Shown piece by piece: positions 17,656 through 61,485 of a DNA stretch of 64,000 bases; position 1 is the first letter of the stretch; every line of letters starts with the position of its first letter. Source of the DNA: Myxococcus stipitatus DSM 14675 (GTDB lineage Bacteria > Myxococcota > Myxococcia > Myxococcales > Myxococcaceae); NCBI RefSeq assembly GCF_000331735.1, contig NC_020126.1, positions 4,650,001 through 4,714,000 on the forward strand. Reading direction: 5' to 3'. The position numbers were made by a program, and so were the translations under genes. Below the pieces are notes generated by a model. That model was not told the DNA's origin, made no database searches, and saw only the letters and a list, made by a program, of their open reading frames with translations.

Positions 17656-18156
17656 CGCGACTTCGCATTGAAGTCCTCCGCGCTGCTTCCGGCAACCCCA
17701 CCCACGACACTCCGTCACCACTGGAGATTTCTAATAGGTGGGCCCGGTCAAGGTATCCTCCTGACCGGGCCCGGTTGTGCCGCCATGGATGAGGTCCGCA
17801 CGTTTAAGTCTTCGCCTCAGGATGAGGCCTCGCGTCCTGCGATTGAACGACCGCCGCACAAGCAGAAGAAGCGGCGGGCCGGAATTGCACCAGCATCTCG
17901 AGGGAATGGGCGAAGACGGTAGATCGGACCTGCGACGGCGAATGCTGAGTCTGGAGTGAGAGCTTGAAGCTGGGGTGCTTCGCGTCACTCGCTTCGTCGC
18001 GCTTGCCTCTACCAATTGGGCTACCCCGCCACAAAAGGTGGCGATGGCGGGGGCAGGGTTCGAACCTGCACTGGAGGCGACGCGAGAACGCTCGGCGTCA
18101 GGCTGCTGCTGAGTTTGAGTTTGTACTCCGAAAACTGTGTGCGCCGAGCCCGAGGC
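17656..18156. other. 501-bp intergenic region without a protein gene, holding a tRNA-like locus
   Basis: No frame here has a credible coding pattern. About 17980-18092 contains the order-inverted tRNA-like halves described separately. The remainder (17656-17980 and 18093-18156) shows no promoter or repeat that I can support; an imperfect inverted repeat, GAGCC-CGA-GGCTC (18146-18158), overlaps the stop of the next gene on the minus strand. Confidence 0.6.
17982..18091 (-). ncRNA. Candidate circularly permuted tRNA-like RNA (3' half precedes 5' half)
   Basis: Read on the minus strand, the order is as follows. First comes a T-arm, GCAGG-TTCGAAC-CCTGC (18069-18053), then the 3' acceptor CCCCGCC (18052-18046) and an A (18045). 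A 14-nt spacer follows (18044-18031), then the 5' acceptor GGCGGGG (18030-18024), TA (18023-18022) and a D-arm with GCC(C)AATTGGTAGAGGC (18021-18005). The acceptor halves pair perfectly over 7 bp. Outside them, GCGAC (18000-17996) pairs with GTCGC (18081-18077), and GCGAG (17992-17988) with CTCGC (18086-18082), giving a 10-bp helix with a 3-nt bulge where the anticodon stem belongs. A further ACGC/GCGT pair (17985-17982 with 18091-18088) extends it. No CCA is encoded and no anticodon loop exists. It may be a functional permuted RNA or a relic of a tandem tRNA pair. Confidence 0.45.
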
Positions 18157-61110: not shown

Positions 61111-61335
61111 GAGTGGCGCTCTTTCCGTTCGGTGGTTCTCCGGCGGGCCATTGCAGGACGAGGGCCAGACCGGCTTCGCTCGGGGAACGGTGATTCCGGC
61201 GTCCTGCGCGCGCAAGGTTTGCGCCCTTGGGATGGGCTCCGCAGTTCTTGCGCGAGGAGTGTTCACTGGAGGGCCCCAGGCTCCGCCTCCGGGTGGGTTG
61301 AACCCCGGTGCGGTGTGGGCTAGATGCTCACCCAG

Positions 61336-61428
61336 TCGCTAGGGGTGCCCCTCGAGAGGGGCTGAGACGGCCGCGCGGCGCGGCCAACCCTTGGAACCTG
61401 AACCGGGTCATACCGGCGGAGGGAAGCG
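61336..61428 (+). ncRNA. TPP (THI-box) riboswitch
   Basis: The leader of thiC has the conserved TPP aptamer pieces in order: GGGGTGCCC (about 61342-61350), GGGCTGAGA (about 61359-61367), then AACCCTTGGAACCTGA (61386-61401) and CCGGGTCATACCGGCGGAGGGAAG (61403-61426, two segments). The P3 hairpin (about 61368-61385) is GC-rich. Thiamine pyrophosphate binding should turn off thiC expression. The expression platform lies in the 60 bp to the start codon. Confidence 0.95.
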
Positions 61429-61485
61429 GCATGGAGCCCACAGCCTGGGCTCCGTCTGCCTTCCCGCCCGTCCTCGAGGAGTTGA

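Follow-up and report, generated by a model that had tools for sequence, protein, structure and literature searches.

The minus strand of the 64,000-nucleotide stretch of Myxococcus stipitatus DSM 14675 DNA analysed here (the window) carries, downstream of a DUF7873 gene, a predicted noncoding RNA of about 400 nucleotides (about 18134-17735), of which an order-inverted tRNA-like element is the first module (module 1). As judged from sequence comparison, this RNA is probably a DUF7873-linked tRNA mimic in which two permuted tRNA-like tops stand on a covarying core, and it probably acts as a ribonucleoprotein (RNP). The order and covarying structure of the elements, the absence of a conserved reading frame, the co-occurrence of gene and RNA and their spread over bacteria and phages were all directly computed. 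A previous sequence-only reading had described module 1 and overlooked the second module, the core and the adjoining DUF7873 gene; it took as a self-standing permuted tRNA what is one of the two modules of the predicted RNA.

Two permuted modules on a covarying core

Module 1 was read directly and by script on the minus strand between 18069 and 18005, in the order T-arm, 3' acceptor strand, loop, 5' acceptor strand and D-arm, with a TA (direct reading) between the 5' acceptor strand and the D-arm (Table 1). This is the inverted topology that had been claimed, and the acceptor paired over all 7 bp, the D-arm with TTGGTA and a C.A mismatch (18021-18005) and the flanks pairing as GTCGC/GCGAC and CTCGC/GCGAG were found as described. 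The acceptor loop, given as a spacer of 14 nt, is 15 nt long (18045-18031) and, as had been stated, no CCA is encoded in the modules of the window. As in a permuted tRNA gene, the 3' half precedes the 5' half and the acceptor strands pair. Between the flank strands there is a simple covarying helix, and no anticodon loop stands at the junction; a permuted tRNA gene with a hidden anticodon was rejected on this ground. The helix that had been proposed in place of the anticodon arm is real, but the window holds no anticodon arm to be rebuilt from it.

The flank helix was followed across relatives in an alignment (A4) of 28 sequences (the window, 26 from the same genus and one Hyalangium; 7 sequences identical to others were excluded). 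Double changes were present at 7/13 pairs of its two helices, with 81.3% and 91.4% of the cells paired, the register being off in the rows of the window (L002), L023, L024 and L028, where there is a small insertion. The covariation proposed as a check of the sequence-only reading was therefore observed. Folding of 118 nt around module 1, from the window sequence alone, gave a z of -2.29 and 5/200 shuffles folded equally well; the single-sequence fold is only moderately better than shuffles and the strong evidence is comparative. ARAGORN found 0 tRNAs over the 64-kb window, showing that permuted tRNA-like modules can escape an ordinary tRNA finder. No Rfam family matched the RNA at threshold in the window: besides two chance-level matches, the search returned the YrlA Y RNAs (RF02553) at 22.8 bits for a gathering cut-off of 69, a family of the same topology that the sequence-only reading had left unnamed when comparing the element with permuted tRNAs and tmRNAs.

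In the whole RNA, helix PA encloses module 1, the long-range helices PB1, PB2 and P9 enclose a second permuted module (module 2, 17894-17834 on the minus strand) together with helix PC, and a terminal hairpin comes last. In A4, the structure has 89 pairs with 97.0% of the cells paired and 28 pairs doubly changed, against 35-43% of cells paired with slid partner strands; since it was drawn from the consensus fold of the same sequences, these pairing figures favour the structure. A second alignment (A6) gathers 28 rows from myxobacteria, actinobacteria, another bacterial lineage and phages. Here 87.5% of the cells are paired against 39-48% in slid versions, percentages that favour the structure because the rows were hand-chosen for clear anchors; double changes occur at 38/43 pairs, and on each of five measures the observed value was equalled by 0/500 shuffles. 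Across these phyla PB2 is 96.4% paired with double changes at 6/7 pairs, and P9 is 81.7% paired with double changes at 9/9, the figures for PB1 (73.1%) and PC (65.2%) being lowered by alignment shifts between clades. The letters of helix PA differ in actinobacterial sequences, for example GAGCG/CGCTC. Two other alignments, A2 and A3, exclude locus L172, whose protein reading ended early.

The elbow of the modules covaries as well. A T at base 55 accompanies G18G19 in 119/126 cases and a G at base 55 accompanies C18G19 in 26/30, but the six examples of the second combination that were displayed are all from the window's genus, so the elbow pairs are not independent events. Module 2 of this genus lacks the usual A9, G18 and U55. 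The aligned region bears a non-coding signature, 319/352 internal gaps in the 28 sequences not being multiples of 3. A 94-aa minus-strand frame, considered as a protein, was rejected: it is open in 7/28 sequences and has a start codon in 5/28, the window included. As the RNA strand has no other long frame and this one is not conserved, the absence of a tag reading frame that had been reported is in agreement with the alignment.

Table 1. Features of the predicted RNA and its gene in the window, and Y-like RNAs of the same genome
Feature	Position	Strand	Basis or remark
DUF7873 (PF25283) gene, 243 aa	18157..18888	-	directly upstream of the RNA, same strand; Pfam 386.8 bits (cut-off 27 bits), E 5.9e-116
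Predicted structured noncoding RNA, aligned extent	17735..18134	-	A4, 85% mean column identity; no kept frame
Helix PA, 5' strand GGAGT	18125..18129	-	pairs with 17957-17953; invariant in 28/28 of A4
Flank helix of module 1, 5' strand: GCGT, CTCGC 18086-18082, GTCGC 18081-18077	18077..18091	-	direct reading; covariation
Module 1 T-arm GCAGG-TTCGAAC-CCTGC	18053..18069	-	script reading; R1 match 32.6 bits
Module 1 acceptor, 3' strand CCCCGCC	18046..18052	-	7/7 pairs; C-G to U-A double change in 6/28
Module 1 acceptor loop, 15 nt	18031..18045	-	A followed by TCG; some relatives have A-CCA
Module 1 acceptor, 5' strand GGCGGGG	18024..18030	-	script reading
Module 1 D-arm GCCC...AGGC, contains TTGGTA, one C.A mismatch	18005..18021	-	script reading
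Flank helix of module 1, 3' strand: GCGAC 18000-17996, GCGAG 17992-17988, ACGC 17985-17982	17982..18000	-	direct reading; covariation
Helix PA, 3' strand ACTCC	17953..17957	-	script reading; A4
Core helices PB1 (GCCGTCG) and PB2 (AGGTCCG), 5' strands	17925..17939	-	A4: 100% of cells paired
Core helix P9, 5' strand	17909..17917	-	A4: 94.6% paired, 6/8 pairs doubly changed
Helix PC, closes module 2, 5' strand CCTCG	17899..17903	-	A4: 98.6% paired
Module 2 T-arm GCTGG-TGCAATT-CCGGC	17878..17894	-	99.3% of cells paired across phyla (A6)
Module 2 acceptor, 3' strand CCGCCGC	17871..17877	-	A6: 99.5% of cells paired, 7/7 pairs doubly changed
Module 2 acceptor loop, 13 nt	17858..17870	-	script reading
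Module 2 acceptor, 5' strand GCGGCGG	17851..17857	-	script reading; A6
Module 2 D-arm GTTC-AATCGCA-GGAC	17834..17848	-	98.2% of cells paired (A6)
Helix PC, 3' strand CGAGG	17828..17832	-	A4
Core helix P9, 3' strand	17808..17816	-	A4, A6
Core helices PB2 (CGGACCT) and PB1 (TGGCGGC), 3' strands	17779..17798	-	A4, A6
Terminal hairpin, GGATA in loop	17740..17772	-	A4: 98.6% paired; terminator-like, without T run
Y-like RNAs, same genome, contig C1 (L001, L208, L221-L223)	2017643-2017781, 2026355-2026502, 8649321-8649461, 5120758-5120889, 2018555-2018678		

The DUF7873 gene and its linkage to the RNA

DUF7873 (PF25283) is a family of unknown function in Pfam. Among the matches listed, the nearest proteins from named organisms are those of Myxococcus and Pyxidicoccus, which are 90-93% identical to that of the window. 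The AF2 model of the window protein (pLDDT 93.5, pTM 0.70; five-model means 70.6 to 93.5) had no match in the PDB by Foldseek at E<=0.001. The top match of VIA-align was 3kdq, a C. diphtheriae protein of unknown function (Z 9.1 and rmsd 8.2 for 147 residues; E 0.36 by Foldseek). Against the viral library, Foldseek gave one match at E 8.5e-4 but with a TM of 0.22, and a protein of Vibrio phage Vp_R1, matched to the model with E 0.013, probability 1.00 and TM 0.42/0.57, is possibly a distant DUF7873 relative. The sequence itself reached an E of only 0.082 in the PDB and matched 0 families in PHROGs and PADLOC. The pI has a median of 6.5 over 205 DUF7873 proteins and is 8.4 for the window protein; the family is not clearly basic, which speaks mildly against simple RNA binding and, together with the lack of a PDB match at E<=0.001, leaves the proposed binding to rest on the gene-RNA linkage. 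No paper naming DUF7873 was found in the literature searched, hence no printed link with an RNA there, and no title or abstract opening that was found describes this RNA. A term search of the main texts of PMC11109978 and PMC2864571 returned neither 'permuted' nor Myxococcus (Myxococc).

The linkage was surveyed in the region following DUF7873 in the genome of the window, 26 same-genus genomes, named bacteria, phages, plasmids and viral contigs, the gene being positioned by tblastn at all 27/27 loci of the genus. In the first 750 nt after DUF7873, a strict module detector found one or more modules in 185/206 loci, and two modules in 85, against 2/206 upstream (472,708 bases), 0/206 on the reverse complement and 5/206 further downstream; these 206 loci are partly non-independent, some repeating one contig or being near-identical, and the D-arm rule of the detector misses module 2 of the window's genus. 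When 14 of the 21 detector-negative loci were inspected, 10/14 scored at least 50 bits with R1, a covariance model of the core and module 2, and L060 scored 21.7; no module was visible by eye in L102, L164 and L178.

R1, whose training set includes the row of the window locus, matches the window at 17941-17772 with 132 bits. In a scan of 61 relatives, own genome included, it gave 120-138 bits in 27/27 genomes of the genus, and 34/34 relatives outside the genus had no DUF7873 and scored at most 56.7 bits, via a partial match; some of the partial R1 matches elsewhere are possibly tandem tRNAs. The family to which a named Kitasatospora (L062) belongs was covered with 101 genomes. DUF7873 occurs in 64 of them, one of which (G215) holds merely a 64-residue fragment, and the RNA was detected at E<=1e-9 in all 63 genomes with the full gene and in 0/38 others. 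In the phylum of the window, 30/195 genomes carry DUF7873. Over the DUF7873 loci from scans, R1 reached at least 50 bits in 93/100 and 70/79, counts that include 20 and 2 training rows, respectively, and some further contig repeats. The 16/179 loci below this score are L039-L043, L060, L102, L141, L145, L148 (contig end), L164, L165, L175, L177, L178 and L191, of which L041 and L042 still have one permuted module. The RNA lies upstream of the gene in L198, and module 1 is absent in at least three Streptomyces copies (L088, L100 and L124).

Phage records with DUF7873 number 73 and plasmid-collection records 4, and its confirmed matching stretches amount to at least 538 in the genome scan and 404 in viral contigs. 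The gene-plus-RNA pair occurs in bacteria (myxobacteria, relatives of Streptomyces and others) and in many phages. The 10 proteins examined as neighbours in 5 loci had no partner in common. Near DUF7873 there is an RNA ligase family gene in a Nocardia locus (L092, 4574-5620) and a RecQ-like helicase in L056, and an upstream gene with weak kinase/AAA matches in L066 (1976-2950) has relatives in L060 and L097 (three actinobacterial loci).

tRNA features, proposed role and alternatives

DUF7873 has a tRNA gene at a distance of 3 kb or less in 54/95 viral, 12/76 other bacterial and plasmid and 0/35 myxobacterial loci. The Rfam families at threshold in 18 other DUF7873 loci were tRNA, tRNA-Sec, tmRNA and HEARO and nothing else; RF02553 had no match at gathering in the 18 loci. 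A phage tmRNA of 89 bits shares a tRNA cluster with DUF7873 in Gordonia phage Phendrix (L036, 1072-1600), and in a cyanophage record (L040, 3950-4159) a HEARO RNA of 129.1 bits comes right after the DUF7873 gene, the R1 match being weak and further away. Hairpins were counted in the 69/95 viral loci with a clear R1 end, repeats and low scorers being excluded. A free anticodon-arm-like hairpin follows the core within about 75 nt in 16/69, and in 9/69, including L142, L169 and L174, such a hairpin is part of an ARAGORN tRNA at or just after the core end; the expectation from shuffles is 0.75 loci. In L142 the tRNA stands between the core and the terminal hairpin.

The modules themselves carry marks of the tRNA 3' end. 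CCA directly follows the discriminator base in 86/259 modules, against 59/2576 other loop offsets. Of the modules assigned as module 1 in bacterial and myxobacterial loci, 82/85 have A as discriminator; of those assigned as module 2 in bacterial loci, 63/64 have T or G. In viral loci the base is mixed (module 1: A 22, T 8, G 4; n=34). The acceptor loops extend from 4 to 117 nt, with medians of only 6-12 nt, and that of module 1 in L138 reaches 607 nt and contains a 186-aa frame which by eye resembles an HNH nuclease; given this range, loop content seems to matter little.

In the explanation that we favour, DUF7873 would bind the RNA, as the linkage suggests. Proteins that act on tRNA (modifying enzymes, PNPase, RNase P, nucleases) may recognise the modules, and the RNP would then be a tethered mimic or decoy that serves the upkeep of tRNA or takes part in tRNA-directed conflict, much as is proposed for YrlA with Ro60. 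The acceptor loops may in addition be cut, giving CCA-ended two-piece modules. Our confidence is highest for the binding, lower for the recognition and mimic role and lowest for the cutting. Points that tell against this explanation, besides the pI of the protein, are the loci in which R1 stays below 50 bits or no module is visible, the copies that lack module 1, the encoding of CCA in just one third of the modules and in none of the window's, the mixed discriminator of viral module 1 and the missing A9, G18 and U55 in module 2 of the genus. More tentatively, and with somewhat less than even confidence, these elements could define a new class of bacterial and phage RNP, in which DUF7873 and a two-headed RNA, matured by RNase P-type cuts into CCA-ended pieces, would serve to handle tRNAs, to protect them or to block tRNA-directed enzymes, with no Ro60 involved, some phages adding an anticodon arm or an adjoining tRNA. 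With the favoured explanation, DUF7873, a family of unknown function, gains a likely RNA partner, Y-RNA-style tRNA mimicry would extend beyond Ro60 systems to a large RNA with two heads, and the pair would bear on the contest between phage and host over the tRNA pool.

Two other readings overlap with this explanation. RNase P and tRNase Z might cut both acceptor loops and leave the RNA in three pieces, its two modules ending in CCA and possibly aminoacylated, in the manner of a permuted tmRNA. The excess of CCA at the expected offset, the nearly constant discriminator A of bacterial and myxobacterial module 1 and the long loops, that of L138 with its HNH-like frame among them, are consistent with such cutting; however, the median loops are short, CCA could reflect tRNA ancestry, and the window has no tag frame and no tmRNA match at gathering. 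We consider this reading, which is compatible with the favoured one, possible but rather doubtful. Slightly less likely still is a special case of the favoured explanation, a phage-derived decoy against tRNA-cutting nucleases that bacterial hosts have retained. It agrees with the proximity of phage copies to tRNA genes, with the anticodon-arm-like hairpins that follow the core far above expectation and with the nuclease-inhibitor role suggested as one possibility for YrlA by Hughes et al. 2020 (PMC7790460), but no anticodon arm is visible by eye in the aligned myxobacterial and actinobacterial copies, DUF7873 has no PADLOC match, and the presence of the RNA in 27/27 genomes of the genus suggests a housekeeping role.

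The remaining alternatives do not agree with the favoured explanation. Identity with YrlA, as one Y RNA or as two fused ones that serve a Ro60 homologue, is improbable: the permuted T-acceptor-D module is shared and RF02553 gives sub-threshold scores in the window and on both modules of a Streptomyces copy (L044; 24.7 and 24.5 bits), but every score is below the 69-bit gathering cut-off and weak RF02553 matches are unspecific, occurring at E<=0.001 in 7/14 control genomes with none above the cut-off. Moreover, the genome of the window has no TROVE match and contains separate, more Y-like RNAs, and the RNA of about 400 nt is built on a core of its own and lacks a closing stem of the Y type. A relic of tandem tRNA genes, which the sequence-only reading had already disfavoured, can be practically discarded. 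Tandem tRNAs do yield a T-arm followed by a D-arm, but the element is kept in 27/27 genomes of the genus with covarying acceptors and flanks, the two-module layout recurs in distant phyla, and this covariation and conservation rule out decay. An intact linear tRNA at the site was sought in relatives and none was found in A4, ARAGORN giving 0 within 3 kb in 35/35 myxobacterial loci.

Comparison with Y RNAs, tmRNAs and permuted tRNA genes

The genome of the window contains at least 5 dispersed RNAs of about 140 nt (Table 1), with one permuted module each and a closing stem of the GCGCCCG/CGGGCGC type. In 15 such sequences from several genomes 98.9% of the cells are paired and double changes occur at 18/30 pairs; the family is present in 33/61 genomes, own genome included, and in 27/27 of the genus. 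One of these RNAs scores 39.7 bits for RF02553, below 69, in this genome without TROVE match. With R2, a model of the Y-like RNAs, the DUF7873-linked RNA scores 35.6 and 30.6 bits, against 53.7-150.4 for the genus matches listed (E<=1e-6). In another genome (L224; G019, contig C33, about 68096-68533), two Y-like RNAs and a third permuted module stand in tandem over about 500 bases. The window also holds a TPP riboswitch at 61331-61441 on the plus strand (72.8 bits).

As in YrlA, which works by tRNA mimicry (PMC8394870), a permuted T-arm, acceptor and D-arm are closed by a flank helix. According to this review, YrlA has one tRNA-like domain, is 90-150 nt long and binds the Ro60-like Rsr through its end stem; its tRNA-like part is modified by DusA and TruB, and it binds PNPase (PMC8394870). 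Hughes et al. 2020 suggest, as one possibility, that this tRNA-like part may be a competitive inhibitor of a nuclease (PMC7790460). The present RNA differs by its two modules, its length of about 400 nt, its different core, its DUF7873 neighbour and the lack of a TROVE match in the genome, where TROVE/Ro60 (PF05731) gave 0 matches at E<=0.001 and the control Deinobacterium chartae was matched. It was not filed as YrlA: its score is too low, its layout is neither short nor single-module and no Ro60 gene was matched in the genome, though the module order is that of YrlA.

In a two-piece tmRNA, the part with the 3' acceptor precedes the 5' part and the two are joined by a loop that is excised. 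The present RNA likewise has the 3' acceptor strand before the 5' one with a loop between them, but it has two modules and no tag frame, and the tmRNA covariance model had no match at gathering in the window. A permuted tmRNA was rejected for the lack of a tag frame, and the likeness drawn by the sequence-only reading does not hold as an identity.

In the permuted tRNA genes of algae and archaea, the 3' half lies upstream of the 5' half with 1-74 bp of intervening sequence (PMC3978253), and a full tRNA matures after splicing at a BHB junction. In the present RNA, in contrast, the flank helix replaces the anticodon arm and the RNA continues into its core. From its sequence, it would belong among the tRNA-mimic noncoding RNAs, appearing to imitate the top half of a tRNA as do the Y RNAs and the head of tmRNA.
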